Positions 2,388-13,243 of a stretch of DNA of 64,000 nt are shown here, piece after piece (within the stretch, counting starts at the first letter, position 1; every line of letters starts with the position of its first letter). Both the position numbers and the translations under genes were made by a program. Location: NCBI GenBank assembly GCA_016222805.1, contig JACRQG010000011.1, forward strand, positions 1-64,000, in the 5' to 3' direction. The notes under the pieces are model-generated. The model saw only the letters and a list, made by a program, of their open reading frames with translations. It ran no database searches and had not been told where the DNA came from. This DNA is from Verrucomicrobiota bacterium (GTDB lineage Bacteria; Verrucomicrobiota; Verrucomicrobiia; Opitutales; Opitutaceae).

Positions 2388-3500
2388 TTAGGTCGTGGCT
2401 CCGGGCCAGACTTCCGGCTCAAAGGTGCGCGCCTCGCCGCCGCCGCGATCCAGCGTCCGGACGGCGGCCTGACCGAGTTGGCGGAAATCGTATCGCAGGC
2501 AGCTGAGTTCCGCGCGGCTGGCCGTGTCGGTGCCCATGACCGACAAGAGGCCCACCGCCGTCGGGCACGCGATGCCGGACTCCTGCAGCGCCGATCGGAG
2601 CAGAACCGCGACGTTGTCCTCCGGGCAGAGCAGGGCGGTCCGCCGGGGGGAGCGGCGCAGTCCCTGGACGAGCTTGCGGCGGTCCGGGGCGGTCGCCGCG
2701 ACCGCGGGCGCGAGCAGGCGGTCGGCGCAACCGAGCTCGTCCGCCACGGTGCGGAGCGACGCCGCGAACTCGTCGACCGCCGGATCCCCGTCAAAGGGGT
2801 GCACCGGCAGGATGCGCTCGAAACCGCGGCCGAGGAGATGTCCGACGGCCTTGAACGCGCCGGCGCGGAAGTCGGCGCGGACATTTCCAAACGGGGCGAC
2901 GGCGCAGGTGCGGAACAGCACGACCGCCGGTTGCAGCCGATCGGCAAAGGCCTGCAGCGCTTCGTCGGACCAGACATGATCGAGGACGTACCCTCCGGCG
3001 GCATCGCCATGGCGGGCGAGGAAGTCCTCCAGGATTGCGCGCTGCTGGGCGACCGGGGCGAACCGCGGCGGCTCGGCCGGATCGGGGTGATTGACGAGCA
3101 ATTCGTCGTGCCAGAGGAGCATGGTGCGGCGGCCGGCTCCGCAGCCGGCGCTGATGCCCTCGAGGAGTTCGCGGTAGAGTTCGCTGCCGAGTTCGAGCCG
3201 GCGGATGAGGCAGGCGACCGGTTTCGGGCGGTCAAGGAGGAGCCGGGCGCCGGCGGGGAAGTACCGGCCGCTTCCCGGCTGCTGCCAGATTTCTCCGGCC
3301 TCAGCCAGCCGGCGGAGGGCGCGAAAGACCGTCGTGTTCGCCACTCCCAGGCGAAGGCCAAGCTCCCGGGTGGTCGGGAGCGGCTCATGCGGTCCCGTTT
3401 CCGCGAGGAGCTGGCGAAGGCGGTCCGGAAGCCCGGCGTCGGCCCGGCGGGAGCGAAGCGGGGAGGGGGAGGCGGGAGAGCGGCGACGGGCCGGGGCCAT
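2388..3500 (-). CDS. GntR/LacI-type transcriptional regulator of the amino-sugar locus
   Basis: 370 residues from the ATG at 3500. In-frame upstream codons allow a longer TTG-started form reaching 3545, but that would run towards the operator. The N-terminal 75 residues form a GntR-type winged helix (LPTTRELGLRLGVANTTVFR, then a wing ending in GSGRYF). The rest resembles the periplasmic-binding-protein effector domain of LacI/AraR-type regulators, including PFDGDPAVDEF and the late GxDTAS segment. It is divergent from the NahK-NagB gene, and a perfect 12-bp palindrome lies between them. A ligand-relieved repressor of the amino-sugar genes and of itself is inferred. The ligand is unknown; an amino sugar or its phosphate is likely. 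Confidence 0.82.
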   Translation of the reverse strand: MAPARRRSPASPSPLRSRRADAGLPDRLRQLLAETGPHEPLPTTRELGLRLGVANTTVFRALRRLAEAGEIWQQPGSGRYFPAGARLLLDRPKPVACLIRRLELGSELYRELLEGISAGCGAGRRTMLLWHDELLVNHPDPAEPPRFAPVAQQRAILEDFLARHGDAAGGYVLDHVWSDEALQAFADRLQPAVVLFRTCAVAPFGNVRADFRAGAFKAVGHLLGRGFERILPVHPFDGDPAVDEFAASLRTVADELGCADRLLAPAVAATAPDRRKLVQGLRRSPRRTALLCPEDNVAVLLRSALQESGIACPTAVGLLSVMGTDTASRAELSCLRYDFRQLGQAAVRTLDRGGGEARTFEPEVWPGATT

Positions 3501-3538
3501 GGAGCGCGGCGGCACCGTGGCCGAGCCGAAGACCTGAT

Positions 3539-3583
3539 GCAACAAGCAAATTTCTGTTGCGCAACAAATGTTCCTACTGTTGT
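3539..3583. promoter_or_regulatory. Candidate operator: palindrome TGTTGCGCAACA with extra half-sites
   Basis: 3555-3566 is a perfect 12-bp palindrome (TGTTGCGCAACA). A further GCAACA lies at 3539-3544 and a TGTTG at 3578-3582, so half-sites repeat around the core. The block is in the short AT-richer divergent gap between the regulator (start 3500) and the amino-sugar enzyme gene (start 3593). This is where a GntR/LacI-type regulator would block both promoters. Confidence 0.65.
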
Positions 3584-3592
3584 GTGGCGCGG

Positions 3593-6500
3593 ATGTCCCC
3601 CCGACCCATCGACTCGACCGAACTTCGTGCCGTGGCCTCCGCTTTCCGCCTCGGCGGCACCTACTGTGGCGGCGCCCCCTACGGCAACGGCCACATCAAC
3701 GATACCTTTGCCGTCTCCTTCGAGCAGGGCGGCGTCACCACCCGGTACATTCTGCAGCGGATCAACGAAAACGTCTTCCGCCAGGTCGACGCGGTGATGG
3801 AAAACGTCGCCCGGGTCACGGCGCACGCCGGGCGCCGCGCGGTCGCCTCGGGCGCCCCGGACGCGATTCGCCGGGCGCTCACGCTCATTCCCACGCGGTC
3901 CGGCGGCAACCTGCACCGCGATGCCATGGGCGCGTGGCGGTGTTACATCTTCATTGAGGGGGCGACATCACACGACCTGATCGAGCATCCCGCCATGGCG
4001 CGCGAGGCCGCGCGGGCCTTTGGCGAGTTCCAGCGCCTCCTCTCCGACCTGCCCGGCGGCCGCCTGCTCGAGACGATCCCGGACTTTCACCACACGCCGA
4101 AACGGCTGGAGGCCCTGCGCCGGGCGATCGCTGCGGACTCCCGTGGCCGGGTGCGCGAGGCGGGGCCGGAAATCGCCTTTGTCCTGGAGCGGGCCGGGAT
4201 GGTCGGAACCCTCCTGGACCTGCAGGCGCGCGGCAAGATGCCGGAGCGCGTCACGCACAACGACACCAAGATCAACAACGTGCTGATCGATGATCAGACG
4301 GGCGCCGGCATCTGCGTGATCGACCTCGACACGGTCATGCCCGGGCTCGCGCTCTACGATTTCGGCGACATGGTGCGTTCGGCCACCAACTCCGCGGCGG
4401 AGGACGAGCCGGACGTTGCGAAGGTGAAGGCGCGCCTGGACATCTTCGACGCGCTCGTCGAGGGGTATCTCGGGGCGACGCGATCCATCCTCACCGAGGC
4501 GGAAATCGATCACCTGGCCTTCTCCGGGCGGCTGATCACCCTGGAGATCGGCATCCGGTTTCTCACCGACTACCTGGAGGGCGACACCTACTTCAAGGTG
4601 CACCGGCCGGGTCACAACCTGGAGCGCGCCCGCACGCAGTTCGCCCTCGTCCGGAGCATGGAGGAGCAGCAGCAGGAGATGGAGGCGATCGTCCGCCGGC
4701 ATGCCAGCCGGCCGGCCGCGATCGCCGCGCGGCATCCCCACCAGCCGGCGATTCCCACCTCGGTGGAGTCCCAGCAGCGCGAGCGGATTCCCACCGAGAT
4801 CTTCGATACGGCCGACGACGCCTGCCGGCGCCTCGCCGGCGAGATTGCCACCCTCATCCGGACCAACACCGCGGCCGGCCGCAACACCGTGCTCGGCCTG
4901 GCGACCGGCTCCACGCCCGTGCGACTCTACAAGCAGCTGATCCGGCTCCACCGCACCGAGGGCCTCAGCTTCTCCCGCGTCCTGACCTTCAACCTCGACG
5001 AATACTATGGCCTGTCGCGGGAGCACCCCGAGAGCTACTGGCGGTTCATGCACGAGCAGCTCTTCAACCACATCGACATCCCGGCGGAGAATATCCACGT
5101 GCCGGACGGCACGGTGGCGCGCTCGGACGTCTTTGCCTGGTGCCGCGCGTACGAGGAGAAGATCCGCGCCGCCGGTGGGCTCGACCTCCAGGTGCTCGGC
5201 ATCGGACGGACGGGACACATCGGCTTCAACGAACCGGGTTCCTCGCGCGAGTCGCGGACACGGTTGGTGACGCTCGACGGCCTGACCCGCCGCGATGCGG
5301 CCCGCGACTTCCTGGGCGAAGCCAACGTGCCGCGACATGCCATCACCATGGGCGTCGGCACGATTCTCGATGCGCGGCGCATCGTGCTGCTGGCCTGGGG
5401 TGAGTCGAAGGCCGGGGTCATCGCGGAAGCAGTCGAAGGCACGCCCACGGACTCGCTGCCGGCCAGTTTCCTTCAGGGGCATCCCCAGGTCCGCTTCCTG
5501 ATCGACCGGGCGGCGGCGGCGGCGCTGACCCGGGTCCGGCACCCGTGGCTCGTGACGCCAATCGAGTGGACGCCGATTGTGACGCGACGCGCCGTCATGT
5601 GGCTGGCCAAGACGGTGAAGAAACCCGTGCTGAAGCTGCTCGACGAGGATTACAGCGAACACGGCATGGCGGACCTCCTGACCGAACACGGCCCGTCCTA
5701 CGGGCTGAACATCCGGATCTTTAACGAGATTCAGCACACGATCACCGGCTGGCCCGGCGGCAAGCCCAACGCGGACGATTCCTTCCGCCCTGAGCGCGCC
5801 TTTCCGTTCCCGAAGCGCGTGGTCGTGTTCAGCCCGGAGCCGTCCCATGATGTGCTGGGGATGGGCGGGACGTTGCGCCGCCTGAAGGACCAGGGACACG
5901 GGGTGACGGTGGTGTACCTGACCTCCGGAAACCTGGCGGTGCCCGACGAGGAGGCGGTGATGGCCGCGGATCTCGTTGGTGAAATCGCCGAGACGCTGGC
6001 GCGCTCCCAGGGGCCGGTGGCGGACTTCGCGCGCACGGCACGGCGCGAACTCCTCGAAAAATCCGCCTTTGCCGGCGACTCCGTCTCGATCCGCCGGTTG
6101 AAGGGCCTGCTGCGGCGCGGGGAGGCGCGTGCCTCGCTGCGGGACTGCGGCTACACGGCGGAGCAGGCGAGATTCCTGGATCTGGCCTTCTACGAACGGG
6201 GCCGGTACCGGCAGTTCGTCCCCGACGACGCTGATGTCGCCGCGGTTGCGTCCGTTTTGCGTGAATACACGCCGAACCAGATCTTCCTGACCGGCGACCG
6301 CGACGATCCCTCCTCGATTCCGGCGGTCTGCTACGACATCGTGCGACGGGCCTGCCGGCTCGTGGCGGAGGAATCGTGGTTCCGCGAGTGCCGGGCCTGG
6401 GTGTACCGTGGGGTGGAGCATCCGTGGGAGGCGGCGGACATCGACATGGCGGTGCCGCTGAGCCCGCGGGAACTTGCCCAAAAGGTGCAGGCGGTGTTCC

Positions 6501-6661
6501 ACCACAAGAGCCAGCGGAGCCAGACGCCGGTCGCCGCGGGCTTGCGCGAGCCCTGGCAGCAGTCCGAACAACAGAACCGCGCCCTGGCGGCCACCTACGA
6601 CGAACTGGGTCTTGCCGACTACGAAGCACTCGAGGGCTTCGCCCGCGCGCGGCTCGAATAG
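3593..6661 (+). CDS. Trifunctional NahK-like kinase / glucosamine-6-P deaminase / PIG-L-like protein
   Basis: 1022 residues from the ATG at 3593. An upstream in-frame GTG-type start lies inside the operator and is less likely. Residues 1-380 match N-acetylhexosamine 1-kinase of the APH fold, with the catalytic loop THNDTKINN (D224) and the metal-binding DLDTVMPG. Residues about 400-655 are glucosamine-6-phosphate deaminase (NagB): LGLATGSTP, FNLDEYYGL and the active-site GIGRTGHIGFNEPGSS. Residues about 745-1022 match the PIG-L/LmbE-like domain found C-terminally in long NagB proteins, but its metal motif reads SPEPSHD (E749-D753) where the family has HPDD. The kinase would make hexosamine-1-P and NagB would convert GlcN-6-P to fructose-6-P plus ammonia. 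The N-terminal kinase fusion is unusual. Confidence 0.88.
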   Translation: MSPRPIDSTELRAVASAFRLGGTYCGGAPYGNGHINDTFAVSFEQGGVTTRYILQRINENVFRQVDAVMENVARVTAHAGRRAVASGAPDAIRRALTLIPTRSGGNLHRDAMGAWRCYIFIEGATSHDLIEHPAMAREAARAFGEFQRLLSDLPGGRLLETIPDFHHTPKRLEALRRAIAADSRGRVREAGPEIAFVLERAGMVGTLLDLQARGKMPERVTHNDTKINNVLIDDQTGAGICVIDLDTVMPGLALYDFGDMVRSATNSAAEDEPDVAKVKARLDIFDALVEGYLGATRSILTEAEIDHLAFSGRLITLEIGIRFLTDYLEGDTYFKVHRPGHNLERARTQFALVRSMEEQQQEMEAIVRRHASRPAAIAARHPHQPAIPTSVESQQRERIPTEIFDTADDACRRLAGEIATLIRTNTAAGRNTVLGLATGSTPVRLYKQLIRLHRTEGLSFSRVLTFNLDEYYGLSREHPESYWRFMHEQLFNHIDIPAENIHVPDGTVARSDVFAWCRAYEEKIRAAGGLDLQVLGIGRTGHIGFNEPGSSRESRTRLVTLDGLTRRDAARDFLGEANVPRHAITMGVGTILDARRIVLLAWGESKAGVIAEAVEGTPTDSLPASFLQGHPQVRFLIDRAAAAALTRVRHPWLVTPIEWTPIVTRRAVMWLAKTVKKPVLKLLDEDYSEHGMADLLTEHGPSYGLNIRIFNEIQHTITGWPGGKPNADDSFRPERAFPFPKRVVVFSPEPSHDVLGMGGTLRRLKDQGHGVTVVYLTSGNLAVPDEEAVMAADLVGEIAETLARSQGPVADFARTARRELLEKSAFAGDSVSIRRLKGLLRRGEARASLRDCGYTAEQARFLDLAFYERGRYRQFVPDDADVAAVASVLREYTPNQIFLTGDRDDPSSIPAVCYDIVRRACRLVAEESWFRECRAWVYRGVEHPWEAADIDMAVPLSPRELAQKVQAVFHHKSQRSQTPVAAGLREPWQQSEQQNRALAATYDELGLADYEALEGFARARLE

Positions 6662-6726: not shown

Positions 6727-8127
6727 ATGCTCGACCTCCGTCCTTCTGTCCGTCCCGCGCTGGAACGGGACTTTCTTCCCGCGGCGCTTTGGAATCGGGC
6801 GTACCGCGCCCTGGTGGCCCGGGATCCCGGCTCGCGGCCCTTCACCATCGTGTTGAGTTCGCCCGGTGGTGCGGTGTCGCGGCACGACAGCCGGGTGCTC
6901 GCCGCCGCGCATCCCGCAGCGCCGCTGACCCTCACCTATGCGGAGCGGCTGCTCAAGTTCCTGCTCTGGCAAAAGGGCGGATGCCACGTGAGGATCGCGG
7001 GCGCCGACGAGATTGCCCGGGCGCTGGCCGCCCTCTACGCGCCCGGCGGACGGCGGGCCTTCGATCATGGGTTCATGGGAGAAAAGACCTATCGCGCACC
7101 GTTCACCGTGGAAGCGGTGCCGGCGGAGGGTCTGCCCGAGGAGGTCGTGCCGTCGCTGCCGGTGGGCCGACACCTGGAGGGGTGCCGCATCGGTTTCGAT
7201 CTCGGTGGAAGTGATCGGAAAGCCGCGGCGGTCATCGACGGCAAGGTGGTCTTTTCGGAGGAGATTCCGTGGGATCCCTATTTCCAGAAAGACCCGAGCT
7301 ACCATCTCGAGGGGGTGCATGATTCGCTGCAACGGGCGGCCGCGCACCTGCCCCGGGTGGATGCGATTGGCGGCAGTTCGGCTGGTATCTACGTGAACAA
7401 CGAGGTGCGCGTGGCCTCGCTCTTCCGCGGGGTGCCGCCGGAGTTGTTCGAACGCCACGTGCGGCGGATGTTCTTCACTCTGCAGGAGCGGTGGGGCGGG
7501 ATCCCCTTCGAGGTGGCCAACGACGGCGAGGTCACGGCCCTGGCCGGGTCGATGTCGCTCGGCGACGGCGCGGTGCTGGGCGTGGCGATGGGCACGAGCA
7601 CGGCCGCAGGTTACGTCACGCCGCGGGGCGGGATCACCCCGTGGTTAAACGAACTCGCCTTTGCCCCGGTGGACTACCACGAGGCTGCGCCGAGAGACGA
7701 ATGGTCCGGCGACACGGGCTGCGGCGTGCAGTACTTTTCGCAGCAGGGTGTCGGCCGGCTGGCCAAGGTCGCGGGCTTTGAGTTTCCCGCGGGCCTGCCG
7801 CTGCCGGAGCAGTTGATCGCGGTGCAAAAGGCAATGGCGGCGGGCGATCCCCGCGCACGGACGATTTACGATTCCATCGGCGTGGCCTTCGGCTACGCGA
7901 TCGCCCACTACGCGGACTTCTACGAACTGCGGCACGTGCTGGTGCTCGGCCGCGTCACCAGTGGTGCCGGCGGCGACTTGATCCTCGCCCGGGCGCGTGA
8001 CGTGCTGCGCGTGGAGTTCCCGGCGCTGGCGGCCCGCGTCCAATTGCATACGCCGGATGAAAAGGACAAGCGACACGGCCAGGCGATCGCCGCCGCGAGC
8101 CTGCCGCCCCTCCGCCCGGTCCGCTGA
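6727..8127 (+). CDS. ROK-family sugar kinase-like protein
   Basis: 466 residues, longer than the 300-400 usual for ROK kinases because about 155 N-terminal residues precede the ROK fold. That extension carries no motif I recognise. The ROK core starts at IGFDLGGSDRKAA (phosphate-1 loop), continues through the ANDGE segment and GVAMGTSTAAGYV (second glycine loop), and ends with a VLGRVTSG-type adenosine region. The classical ROK zinc signature (CxCGxxGC) is not evident; GDTGCGVQYF sits in that region instead. The gene lies 65 bp after the NagB fusion and 34 bp before the PIG-L deacetylase, so an operon is likely. A hexosamine kinase or a sugar sensor are both possible. Confidence 0.78.
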   Translation: MLDLRPSVRPALERDFLPAALWNRAYRALVARDPGSRPFTIVLSSPGGAVSRHDSRVLAAAHPAAPLTLTYAERLLKFLLWQKGGCHVRIAGADEIARALAALYAPGGRRAFDHGFMGEKTYRAPFTVEAVPAEGLPEEVVPSLPVGRHLEGCRIGFDLGGSDRKAAAVIDGKVVFSEEIPWDPYFQKDPSYHLEGVHDSLQRAAAHLPRVDAIGGSSAGIYVNNEVRVASLFRGVPPELFERHVRRMFFTLQERWGGIPFEVANDGEVTALAGSMSLGDGAVLGVAMGTSTAAGYVTPRGGITPWLNELAFAPVDYHEAAPRDEWSGDTGCGVQYFSQQGVGRLAKVAGFEFPAGLPLPEQLIAVQKAMAAGDPRARTIYDSIGVAFGYAIAHYADFYELRHVLVLGRVTSGAGGDLILARARDVLRVEFPALAARVQLHTPDEKDKRHGQAIAAASLPPLRPVR

Positions 8128-8161: not shown

Positions 8162-9013
8162 ATGAAACTCTCCCATCCGAAAGCCGACCTGTACGTCCCC
8201 GCTGGTGATTCCGCTCCGGAAGCGGCGCTCGCCCGCGTCACCCACCTGTGCGTCGCGGCCCACCAGGACGACATCGAAATCATGGCCCACGCCGGCATCA
8301 GCGACTGCCTCGACACGCCCGGAAAGGCGTTCGGCGGGGTGGTGGTGACCAACGGCGCGGGTTCTCCCCGCACCGGGGCCTATGCCCACATGACCGACGA
8401 GGAGATGCAGGACGTGCGCCGGCAGGAGCAGCGGGCGGCGGCGAAACTGGGCCGCTACGCGATCCAGCTGCAGCTCGCCCACCCGAGTTCCGTGGTGAAG
8501 AAGGCCGGAGACCCCGGCGTGGCGGCGGACCTCGCGCTGATTTTCGGCGGATGCAGCGCGGAGGTCGTTTACCTGCACAACCCGGCGGACAAACACGACA
8601 CCCACGTCGCCGTGATGCTGCGCTGTCTCGAGGCGATGCGAGCGCTCCCGGCCGGAAAGCGGCCGCGCCGCGTGTTGGGCTGCGAAGTCTGGCGGGACCT
8701 CGATTGGGTGGTGGATTCCGACAAGGTGCTGCTCGACGCCGGGCGCCATCCCGAACTCGCGGTGGAGTTGCTGAAAGTCTTCGATTCCCAGGTGACGGGT
8801 GGCAAACGGTACGATCTCGCCACGATGGGGCGCCGGATGGCCCACGCGACCTACCATACGTCGCATGCGACCGACAAGGTGGCGGGCATCACTTGGGCCA
8901 TGGACCTCACGCCACTGATCACGAACCCAGGTCTTTCCGTGGAGGAGTACACTCTGGGTTACCTCCGCCGCCTGCAGGACGATGTGGTGGCTCGCGTGAG
9001 GAAGTTCTCGTAA
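8162..9013 (+). CDS. PIG-L/LmbE family N-deacetylase
   Basis: 283 residues. The motif AAHQDDIE (H34, D36, D37) is the zinc and catalytic signature of the PIG-L/LmbE family, which removes the N-acetyl group from GlcNAc-containing substrates. The late His pair in NPADKHDTHV supplies the remaining metal ligand region. It is the last gene of the amino-sugar run. Unlike the PIG-L-like domain at the end of the NagB fusion, its metal motif is intact, so it could supply the deacetylation step (GlcNAc or GlcNAc-phosphate to the glucosamine form) that NagB needs. The exact substrate is not determined. Confidence 0.85.
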   Translation: MKLSHPKADLYVPAGDSAPEAALARVTHLCVAAHQDDIEIMAHAGISDCLDTPGKAFGGVVVTNGAGSPRTGAYAHMTDEEMQDVRRQEQRAAAKLGRYAIQLQLAHPSSVVKKAGDPGVAADLALIFGGCSAEVVYLHNPADKHDTHVAVMLRCLEAMRALPAGKRPRRVLGCEVWRDLDWVVDSDKVLLDAGRHPELAVELLKVFDSQVTGGKRYDLATMGRRMAHATYHTSHATDKVAGITWAMDLTPLITNPGLSVEEYTLGYLRRLQDDVVARVRKFS

Positions 9014-10656: not shown

Positions 10657-10987
10657 GGGGCGGCAAGGGTCGATGGAACGTGCCGAGCGCACGATTCGAA
10701 TGCAACCCCCGGGGGCCGGCCGGGTGAATCGGCGTGGCTGCACGCCAGGGAGCACGGCGGGTTCCCACCGTGGCAGGCAGGGCGTTCGGCGGCAGGCTTG
10801 AACCTGACCGGAAAGTCATCTTCATCGTCCGCCGGTCTCCGACTTTCGCGCGCGACCGATCTTCAGATTCTCACAACCACGGACGAACAAATGAACACCG
10901 ATGGGTCGATCTTCCTCCGCGGTTGTCGGTGTGCCGCGGGTCCGACGCGGCGGGAGTCCGGGTCGGGTGAAAACTCCGCCTGAACTG
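10657..10987. other. 331-bp divergent intergenic region
   Basis: Non-coding gap between the phosphatase (leftward) and the membrane protein gene (rightward). It should hold promoters for both. I see no convincing -35/-10 pair, repeat or RNA gene in it. Confidence 0.4.
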
Positions 10988-13243
10988 ATGCCGCCGCTAC
11001 GGAGATGGCTGGAAATCGGTGCGGTCGTGGCCGCCGTGCTGCTGGTGGTGGGTTACTTTCATTGGGTGGTCGCGGCCAACAGTGGCTTCGATGACCGCGG
11101 GGATCTGGAGTACTACAAACTGCTGGTCCGGGGTTGGAAGAAAGGGCAGCTCTCTCTCGACCGCGATCCGGCTCCCGAACTGCTGGCCCTGAAGGACCCC
11201 TACGATCCCGAGCAGAACCAACCCTACAAGCTCGGCGATGTCTCCCTCTACAAAGGGAAGTATTATCTCTACTTCGGGCCGGCACCGGCGCTGACGCTGA
11301 TGTTGCCGTACGCGCTGCTCACGGGGCGTGAACTCGTCTCGGGTGACGCCACTTGGGTCTTTGCCAGTCTGGCCTTCGTGGCGGCGAGCGGGGTCTGGCT
11401 GGGGATTCGTCGGCGCTATTTTCCGGAAAGCCGCTGGTGGACGGCTCCGCTGGGGGTGTTGGCGATTGGTTTTGGCACGCAACTCCTGTCGCTGGTGCAA
11501 CGTCCGATGATGTGGGAACTCGCCATCTCGGCGGGCGTCGCGTTCACCTGCCTGGCCGTGCTGGCGTGCGAGCGGGCGGTGCACGGGAGCCGCCCGCTTT
11601 TGGCGATGGCCGGGGCGGGGCTGTGCCTGGGCCTGGCCGTCGCGTCGCGACCCACCTGCCTGCTTGCGTGCGGCCTCCTGATGGTGCCCGTCTGGTTCGC
11701 GTGGAGGGAGCGGTCGCCCGGGCGGGTGTGGTGGAAGATGGGCTTGGCGGGTCTTGGGCCGTTGGTGGCTTGCGGGGTGGCCATCATGATCCACAACTAC
11801 GCCCGCTTCGACAATCCGCTGGAGTGGGGGCAGAACTACCAGCTTTCGGGGGCCTACGAGAGCAAGCTGGTGCATTTCAGCCCGCGCTTCTTCCTGCACA
11901 ATTTTTCCGTCTATTTTTTCCAGCCGCTGCAGTGGACGTCGGAGTTTCCCTTTGCGCTCGCGCAGGCGATCGAGATTTCGCACATCCCCGACTACTTCGG
12001 GACGGAGGAGGTGTGCGGAATGGCGGTCACGTTTCCGTTCACCTGGTTTGTCCTGGCGCTGCCCCTGGCGTGGTGGCGGCGCGACGCGCTGGAGCGGGCG
12101 CGCCTGGGAACGGCGATCGGGACCGTTGCCGCCTACGCGCTGCCGGTCGGGGCGGTGGTGCTTTGCTACTTTTCCACGACAATGCGCTACCAGGCGGACT
12201 ATGCGGTGGCGGTGGCCGTGCTGGCGATGACGGGGATGCTCGCGGCGGAGCGGGCTTGGTGCCTGCGCGAATGGCGCGTCGGCGGCTTCGTGCCGGGACT
12301 GGCGGCACTGACGGTGGCCGTGACGCTCGTCGTCGGGGTCCTGGTGACCTTCGACTACCACGGCCGATCGATGCGGATGGCGTCGACCGAACGGTGGCGG
12401 GAATACGCGCGCACGGCCAATGCCGCCGTTGCCGTCGTCGGGAACTGGCTGGGCCAGGTCGATGGACCGCGGGTGTACAAGTTGCGGTTCCAGCCGCGAC
12501 CTGTCGGGACCATAGAGGCGTTTTGGCAGCCAAGGGACCCGCAGTTTGGCGATCGCATCATGGTGGAACACCTCGGCGAGCAGCTGATTCGCTTTGGCTA
12601 TGCGGCTCCGGGAGGCGACCCCGCGTGGGGGCGCCCGCTGCGCTGGGAACGCAACCACACGCACACGGTTTCCGTGCAGCACCCGGCCCTTTATGCCCCA
12701 ATGGGAAGCAGCTGGTGGAGCGGAGCGCGGCGGGACTATGAGTTCCAGGAGCGCTCCGGAGTGGCGGTGTGGTTCAGCGGTGGCAGGGCACTGGCAGCCG
12801 TGCGTAAGCCTGTCCGTGACGGGATCACGCGGGGCGGGTCCGTGGGTCGTGAGTTTTCCGGCGAGGTACGGAGCGAGTCGTGGCGCCTGTTTCGGGAGGA
12901 TGAACTGCCGGTCGGGCTGGTGGAACCGATGGCGCCGCGCGGGGGGACGCTCCGCCTGAAGATTGTCTTTGCCGACAATCTGCGACCTGAGGGGGAACCC
13001 ATCTTTGCGGCCGGGGCGCGTTTCCGATCCAACATCCTCTTTGCGGAACCCTCGGAGGGTGGGGTGCGGGTCACCTATGAGACCTACACGGTGCCGCGGG
13101 TGAGTTCACCGGTAATCCCGTGGAAGGCCGACGGACATTGGCTGGAGCTGGAGATGCCGAGTTTCCAGCCGGAAAAGTACGCGAGCCGCACGTCGCTCGC
13201 GTCGCTGTTGGGGAAGTTGGAGCGCTGCACCATCAGGACGTAG
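10988..13243 (+). CDS. Large multi-pass membrane protein of unknown function
   Basis: 751 residues from the ATG at 10988; a longer form from 10901 adds a basic, low-complexity stretch and is unlikely. About 11-12 hydrophobic segments fill residues 5-490, beginning with IGAVVAAVLLVVGYFHWVV. A soluble tail of about 250 residues follows. An early extracytoplasmic loop (DPYDPEQNQPYKLGDVS, then YYLYFGPAPA) recalls glycosyltransferase-family membrane proteins of the GT-C kind, but no catalytic motif is certain. The last 53 codons overlap the 3' end of the convergent serine hydrolase gene, and the final residues after PSFQPEKYAS look like read-out rather than a designed C-terminus. Confidence 0.7.
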   Translation: MPPLRRWLEIGAVVAAVLLVVGYFHWVVAANSGFDDRGDLEYYKLLVRGWKKGQLSLDRDPAPELLALKDPYDPEQNQPYKLGDVSLYKGKYYLYFGPAPALTLMLPYALLTGRELVSGDATWVFASLAFVAASGVWLGIRRRYFPESRWWTAPLGVLAIGFGTQLLSLVQRPMMWELAISAGVAFTCLAVLACERAVHGSRPLLAMAGAGLCLGLAVASRPTCLLACGLLMVPVWFAWRERSPGRVWWKMGLAGLGPLVACGVAIMIHNYARFDNPLEWGQNYQLSGAYESKLVHFSPRFFLHNFSVYFFQPLQWTSEFPFALAQAIEISHIPDYFGTEEVCGMAVTFPFTWFVLALPLAWWRRDALERARLGTAIGTVAAYALPVGAVVLCYFSTTMRYQADYAVAVAVLAMTGMLAAERAWCLREWRVGGFVPGLAALTVAVTLVVGVLVTFDYHGRSMRMASTERWREYARTANAAVAVVGNWLGQVDGPRVYKLRFQPRPVGTIEAFWQPRDPQFGDRIMVEHLGEQLIRFGYAAPGGDPAWGRPLRWERNHTHTVSVQHPALYAPMGSSWWSGARRDYEFQERSGVAVWFSGGRALAAVRKPVRDGITRGGSVGREFSGEVRSESWRLFREDELPVGLVEPMAPRGGTLRLKIVFADNLRPEGEPIFAAGARFRSNILFAEPSEGGVRVTYETYTVPRVSSPVIPWKADGHWLELEMPSFQPEKYASRTSLASLLGKLERCTIRT

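Follow-up and report, generated by a model that had tools for sequence, protein, structure and literature searches.

A single open reading frame that encodes a predicted three-part protein lies near the start of a 64,000-nucleotide stretch of a Verrucomicrobiota genome (family Opitutaceae; GenBank assembly GCA_016222805.1, contig JACRQG010000011.1, positions 1 to 64,000 of the forward strand), which we refer to as the window. The frame, at 3593-6661 on the forward strand, begins with ATG, has no internal stops, and specifies 1022 residues in which a kinase domain of the NahK type is followed by a glucosamine-6-phosphate deaminase (NagB) domain and a PIG-L-like pseudo-domain. Pfam models matched the protein in this order, each above its curated cut-off (APH at residues 29-281, Glucosamine_iso at 406-629, PIG-L at 745-905), and the NCBIfam model of NagB-PIG-L proteins (NF002557, PRK02122) matched residues 385-1019 with 827 bits against a cut-off of 384, covering model positions 15-650 of 653. 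These matches confirm the domain arrangement proposed in an initial annotation made from the sequence alone, and similarity to NahK supports the hexosamine 1-kinase assignment given there.

Within this protein, all features of which lie on the forward strand, the N-acetylhexosamine 1-kinase domain (residues ~9-371; 3617-4705) keeps the motifs HND (222-224) and DLD (244-246) and resembles biochemically characterised NahK over its full length; this similarity supports a NahK-type 1-kinase. A linker (residues 372-386; 4706-4750), defined by comparison of junctions, runs from the kinase end to the site of a former NagB start codon; the predicted local distance difference test score (pLDDT) of the structure model is below 50 at residues 375-385, and residues 368-392 are the fastest-evolving part of the fusion. 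The NagB domain (residues ~399-651; 4787-5545) scores 272.8 bits with the equivalog model TIGR00502, whose cut-off is 236.9. We take the catalytic residues of Escherichia coli NagB to be D72, D141, H143, and E148; the fusion keeps D469, H542, and E547, and has T540 at the position of E. coli D141, which is Asn in Bacillus subtilis NagB. A segment that is largely helical in the structure model (residues 651-738; 5543-5806) lies inside the NF002557 match and leads to the PIG-L/LmbE-like pseudo-domain (residues 740-1020; 5810-6652), which matches Pfam PIG-L and has the PIG-L fold by prediction. The model of the whole chain has a predicted template modelling score (pTM) of 0.64 and gives no firm arrangement of the domains.

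The PIG-L-like domain has lost its zinc site. In LmbE/PIG-L enzymes the zinc is held by the motif HXD1D2 + H, and D1 acts as the general base in most of them (PMC4101496). In the fusion, SPEPSHD (747-753; 5831-5851) replaces SPHPDDD, such that the first ligand His becomes Glu749, the general base Asp becomes Ser751, and the second ligand Asp becomes His752; by alignment, DDPSSIP (904-910; 6302-6322) replaces DDPHGTH, and both histidines of that motif are gone. EPSH therefore occupies 749-752, and no His is present at 907 or 910. The first replacement had already been recognised in the initial annotation, and that part stands; its account of the loss requires correction, in that the second half of the site is missing as well. 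From the absence of these residues we infer that the domain would not be a classical deacetylase.

We examined how widely this loss is shared in an alignment of 120 NagB-PIG-L rows, consisting of the window protein, 80 loci from GTDB genomes (the best 80 of 579), and 39 loci from the genomes that we label G, with some genomes represented twice. The rows fall into 68 dead and 52 intact sequences (61 and 52 after merging rows at least 99% identical). All 52 intact rows have His at the first ligand followed by Asp-Asp, and His at both 907 and 910; all 68 dead rows, the window included, have Glu at the first ligand, no His at 907, and no 907/910 His pair, although a lone His at 910 persists in one row (L024; here and below, G, L, and P numbers are our labels for genomes, loci, and proteins) and the second ligand is Asp in 44. 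Glu-Pro also occupies the site in 121 of 121 top matches to the protein, fused and unfused, two of which are the window's own. Among the 80 GTDB loci, the 43 from Bacteroidota, Balneolota, and Ignavibacteriota are all intact and the 37 from Verrucomicrobiota are all dead; the intact kind does occur in this phylum, in nine sequences from G-labelled genomes, of which eight belong to the same family as the window. In a tree of 109 rows, a branch with a Shimodaira-Hasegawa-like approximate likelihood ratio test (SH-aLRT) value of 100 separates the intact rows from the others.

The initial annotation tied the degenerate PIG-L part to the unusual protein in which it was found, and this view does not hold, as ordinary unfused NagB-PIG-L proteins of ~640 residues have the same dead site. 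On the evidence of these sequences, the missing zinc site is unlinked to the fusion and characterises one clade of NagB-PIG-L proteins in Verrucomicrobiota. Because the dead clade contains unfused proteins from several families, the loss is older than the fusion; the idea that the fusion caused it is rejected by the unfused relatives. The dead domain is nonetheless not decaying. Eight pairs of closely related fused genes, which come from only five genomes (G007, G009, G010, G015, and G020), gave ratios of nonsynonymous to synonymous substitution rates (dN/dS) of 0.033-0.087 in the PIG-L-like part, 0.041-0.079 in NagB, 0.047-0.097 in the kinase, and 0.125-0.592 in the linker. As the ratio in the dead domain is about as low as in the enzyme domains, the domain is maintained, and it may serve NagB as a structural or ligand-sensing part.

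The fusion is a real, conserved arrangement of familiar parts. We searched 57 genomes, of which 27 belong to the window's genus (the window genome included) and 30 are other relatives. A complete, stop-free fusion is present in 9 of the 27, the eight besides the window being 72-83% identical to the window protein; in a tenth case (G022) a contig end truncates the fusion inside the PIG-L part, and the two genes that follow the fusion in the window are still found downstream. No full-length match was found in the 30 relatives outside the genus, and no second NahK appeared in the nine fused genomes among the matches of the fusion-protein search. All three Pfam domains were found in 11 of the best 120 protein matches (7957 in total), the window's own entry included, and 2 of the 80 GTDB loci are fused (L106, from an Opitutae metagenome genome, and L107, from an Opitutaceae metagenome genome). 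The kinase was thus found on NagB-PIG-L only in some members of one genus. Eleven genomes of the same genus (G001, G004, G008, G011, G013, G014, G016, G018, G021, G024, and G025) have a NagB match of ~47-55% identity to the deaminase part only, and no complete NagB-PIG-L match. In a sample of 288 genomes from the phylum, 26 exceeded the NF002557 cut-off, and in one genome (G132) the NagB-PIG-L protein lies in a longer frame of 1596 residues.

The three-part fusion is apparently undescribed, whereas NahK, NagB, and NagB-PIG-L are known families. A literature search, with most subscription papers outside its coverage, did not bring up any publication that describes the three-part fusion or the dead PIG-L clade, and to this extent the novelty suspected in the initial annotation is supported. 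The protein is not unique, however, given its presence across the genus, and public databases already contain several copies, the named ones labelled glucosamine-6-phosphate deaminase.

Comparison with unfused relatives points to how the joint may have arisen. In G002, where the genes are separate, the kinase stop is followed 61 bases later on the same strand by the start of NagB-PIG-L. Unfused NagB-PIG-L proteins begin with stretches such as MIPTTVEAQQRERI (P0014), and the same stretch follows the kinase end and a short linker in the fused proteins (~14 residues in the window protein). The Met of the NagB start is kept inside the joint of P0004, P0009, P0011, and P0012/P0122; the window protein has Ala at this position. 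The junction is that of an upstream kinase gene joined in frame to the adjacent NagB-PIG-L gene, and loss of the kinase stop codon would have created it.

Phylogenies of the two parts gave different answers about how often this occurred. In a tree of 56 NagB-PIG-L rows, the fused P0011 grouped with the unfused P0045 (99/95) and P0049 (100/100), and P0012 fell apart from the main fused clade (93/83). For this part, placing all fused rows in one clade was rejected by the approximately unbiased test (p-AU 9.5e-48), with p values of 5e-4 for the main clade plus P0011 and 0.023 for the main clade plus P0012. The kinase tree instead united all 12 fused rows (89/77) and placed P0012 and P0122 within the main clade; this tree contained 14 unfused kinases, and the nearest unfused relatives were not among them. 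The 109-row first tree had included the aberrant P0122 (branch length 9.59), which was left out of the 56-row tree together with 52 other rows that included the HPDD outgroup; in two mixed alignments (A2 and A4) the kinase-only rows were misaligned (identity of 13-24%, against ~47-66% expected), and both alignments were set aside. The sequences thus reject a single fused clade in the NagB-PIG-L tree and do not do so in the kinase tree. As the two trees disagree, the sampling of kinases is thin, and P0012 and P0122, both derived from metagenomes, may be chimeric or broken, we do not claim independent origins of the fusion.

Two genes follow the fusion on the same strand. The first, 65 bp downstream (6727-8127), encodes a ROK-like sugar kinase that is kept beside the fusion or NagB-PIG-L in relatives; its start was checked, its DLGGSD and NDG motifs are invariant in 14 sequences, and its profile matched glucokinase 2qm1 at 3.5e-6. 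The protein itself had no Pfam match at E 0.1, and its homologue in G054 had a ROK match below threshold. The second, a further 34 bp downstream (8162-9013; start checked), encodes an intact PIG-L/LmbE deacetylase (PF02585, 47 bits), in agreement with the earlier report of a separate intact PIG-L gene as the second gene downstream. HQDD and DKHxxH, which supply the HXDD and H residues of the family, are invariant in 15 of 15 sequences of this protein, and its structure model (pLDDT 89.5) is similar in fold to BshB and diacetylchitobiose deacetylase. Sequence searches of the PDB with either protein alone gave no match; their profiles did match. The fusion probably heads an operon with these two genes.

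This order (fusion, ROK-like, PIG-L) is found in 8 of the 9 fused genomes, the window included; in G009 (L046, 9336-10723) the ROK-like match is split in two pieces. By hand count, 29 of the 57 genomes have a ROK-like match, and in 19 of these a PIG-L match lies within 200 bp of it; in 13 of the 57 the PIG-L match is no more than 300 bp from a nucleotidyltransferase match. One cluster in a Rariglobus genome reads nucleotidyltransferase, NahK, epimerase, dead NagB-PIG-L, ROK-like, and PIG-L, and that of G054 reads NagB, ROK-like, PIG-L, nucleotidyltransferase, NahK, and epimerase. In G013, a nucleotidyltransferase-NahK-PIG-L group follows an amidohydrolase gene and a gene that we take, from its sequence, to be dehydratase-like; the window genome (G000) has the nucleotidyltransferase with the same two neighbours, and NahK and PIG-L are absent there.

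NahK domains are also joined to other partners. A search limited to chains 0.55-1.75 times as long as the query gave 482 matches, and the best 120 of these included 110 further long proteins with a NahK domain. Of the 110, 87 have a second match to the nucleotidyltransferase, 3 to the ROK-like kinase, 1 to the epimerase, and 1 to NagB, and 18 are kinase only. None of the 110 has NahK fused to an intact PIG-L. The nucleotidyltransferase fusions are ~670 residues long (PF01636 and PF00483), with few named entries, one of them from Lachnospiraceae (P0160), and would form a natural two-enzyme route to uridine diphosphate N-acetylhexosamine (UDP-HexNAc). In P0123, P0125, and P0133 the NahK domain is fused, in both orders, to a homologue of the window's ROK-like kinase, and in P0128 it is fused to an epimerase 62% identical to that of the G054 cluster. 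Independently of the window, these fusions connect the same set of enzymes, and they suggest that physical linkage has repeatedly been favoured.

One explanation for these observations, to which we give an even chance, is that the fusion is a two-enzyme hub between the salvage of amino sugars by NahK and their breakdown by NagB, and that the dead domain has a structural or sensory role. The product of NahK is N-acetylhexosamine-1-phosphate (PMC6264712 and PMC8106489). The kinase domain would phosphorylate N-acetylglucosamine (GlcNAc) or N-acetylgalactosamine (GalNAc) at C1, yielding a precursor of UDP-HexNAc that the nucleotidyltransferase encoded elsewhere in the window genome could convert. 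The NagB domain would turn glucosamine-6-phosphate (GlcN-6-P) into fructose-6-phosphate and ammonia. The separate PIG-L protein may deacetylate GlcNAc to glucosamine, and the ROK-like kinase may then form GlcN-6-P, or the kinase may act first. Breakdown by PIG-L, ROK-like kinase, and NagB could in this way reach fructose-6-phosphate without the deacetylase NagA, which exceeds the TIGR00221 cut-off (225.65) in 3 of the 57 genomes and not in that of the window. A single chain would fix salvage and breakdown of the same sugar at a 1:1 ratio.

Several observations weigh against this interpretation. The 1-phosphate made by NahK and the 6-phosphate used by NagB are not consecutive intermediates, channelling between them would require a mutase, and no mutase was found in the fusion cluster. 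Every activity of every part is predicted from sequence, as are the order of the pathway and the role of the dead domain; at the position of E. coli Asp141, Thr540 is present in 46 of 46 rows of the NagB alignment. The window genome has two NagA-like proteins, at about 177-178 and 160 bits, below the cut-off. G019 is fused, yet its ROK-like and PIG-L genes are elsewhere, and 10 of the 29 genomes that have a ROK-like match show no PIG-L match within 200 bp of it. At the 80 GTDB loci, nearby ROK-like or PIG-L homologues were found by tblastn with the window proteins, which may miss distant homologues, at Verrucomicrobiota loci only, a pattern suggesting that the separate PIG-L simply replaces the dead domain. 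We reject simple replacement, since G031 has an intact HPDD domain with adjoining ROK-like and PIG-L genes and many of the Verrucomicrobiota loci have neither gene within the stretch examined.

It is also possible, if somewhat unlikely, that the fusion followed neutrally from gene order, when two genes of one operon merged, and that each domain works unchanged with co-expression as the sole gain. The poorly modelled, fast-evolving linker and the loose whole-chain model fit such a scenario, as do the 18 of 27 genomes of the genus without a complete fusion (one, G022, being cut by the contig end); the joint has nevertheless been kept in nine genomes, at identities as low as 72%, and other sequences have NahK fused to different enzymes of this cluster.

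We consider it rather unlikely that the PIG-L-like domain has gained a new catalytic or ligand-binding activity through Glu749, for example by sensing GlcN-6-P, GlcNAc-1-phosphate, or ammonia and regulating NagB. All 68 dead rows share Glu749 while 751-753 vary, and only positions 749 and 908 of this part swap one near-fixed residue for another between the clades; strong purifying selection on the domain agrees with this account. A purely structural role would predict conservation too, however, and columns at least 95% conserved number 52 in the pseudo-domain against 89 in the catalytic clade, the opposite of NagB (94 against 78). A broader scheme that we regard as quite doubtful would combine these elements in a Verrucomicrobiota module for NagA-free GlcNAc breakdown, in which the dead PIG-L part of NagB became a sensor by the His-to-Glu change and the NahK fusion decides between recycling to UDP-HexNAc and burning.

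A decidedly unlikely alternative has NahK feeding breakdown, such that PIG-L makes glucosamine-1-phosphate from GlcNAc-1-phosphate, phosphoglucosamine mutase converts this to GlcN-6-P, and the fused NagB deaminates it. Kinase and deaminase would then be the first and last steps of one route; NahK and PIG-L genes adjoin, with no NagB nearby, in G006, G008, and G013, and PIG-L often lies beside the nucleotidyltransferase. The ROK-like gene is the commoner close neighbour of PIG-L, though (the same 19 of 29 genomes), and no mutase is present among the 20 neighbours that were annotated. A sequencing or assembly error that merged two genes, which the initial annotation named as a possible refutation, has next to no chance of being correct, as the sequence at 4720-4790 is clean and the fusion is uninterrupted in eight other genomes of the genus and present in further metagenome proteins.

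The protein differs from known systems in several ways. NahK of Bifidobacterium longum (PDB 4ocj, 4ocu, 4wh1-3) is free-standing and encoded in the lacto-N-biose/galacto-N-biose (LNB/GNB) cluster, whereas in the fusion it forms the N-terminal region of a deaminase. That cluster, containing NahK, GalT, and GalE (PMC8106489), resembles those of Rariglobus and G054, which likewise combine NahK with a nucleotidyltransferase and an epimerase-family gene; the nucleotidyltransferase, however, is of another family (closest solved chain 3pnn), the epimerases, at 166 and 173 bits, do not reach the galE cut-off of 262.3, and NagB, the ROK-like kinase, and PIG-L are additional. Residues 385-1019 cover nearly the whole NF002557 model (length 653), with the difference that the window's clade lacks the zinc site and that a kinase has been added in some members of one genus. 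Relative to PIG-L/LmbE deacetylases such as BshB (6p2t) and diacetylchitobiose deacetylase (8bgn), the fusion's domain lacks both metal histidines, with Glu at the first in all clade members examined. The NahK-nucleotidyltransferase proteins show the same habit of NahK to fuse to a pathway partner, although the partner enzyme differs.

The protein offers a testable case in which a gene fusion would connect salvage of a metabolite with its breakdown, and the 68 dead and 52 intact rows constitute a clean natural pair of clades in which to ask how NagB is served by a deacetylase domain that is dead yet conserved. The gene set also suggests a NagA-free GlcNAc route in Verrucomicrobiota; a survey of gut genomes (PMC5583593) reported the GlcNAc catabolic pathway as absent from this phylum, of which one genome was analysed. 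One Bacteroidetes study (PMC5127042) failed to express its NagB in E. coli.

Other features of the window are of secondary interest. A 780-residue protein at 10901-13243 had no Pfam match at E 0.1. On the reverse strand upstream of the fusion, a divergent gene (2388-3545) encodes a regulator with a GntR-type helix-turn-helix and a LacI-type sensor domain (Pfam GntR and Peripla_BP_3); a homologue is found at the same place in G003 and, also divergent, at the start of the Rariglobus cluster, and this regulator likely controls the cluster. A scan for sigma-70 promoters found none (0.5 expected), and an inverted-repeat tool returned nothing for the promoter region. A perfect 12-bp palindrome with zero loop, TGTTGCGCAACA (3555-3566), spotted by eye and checked by script between the regulator and the fusion, is a candidate operator; it occurs once in the window and, of the upstream regions compared, is absent from the other eight and present upstream of the fusion in G003.

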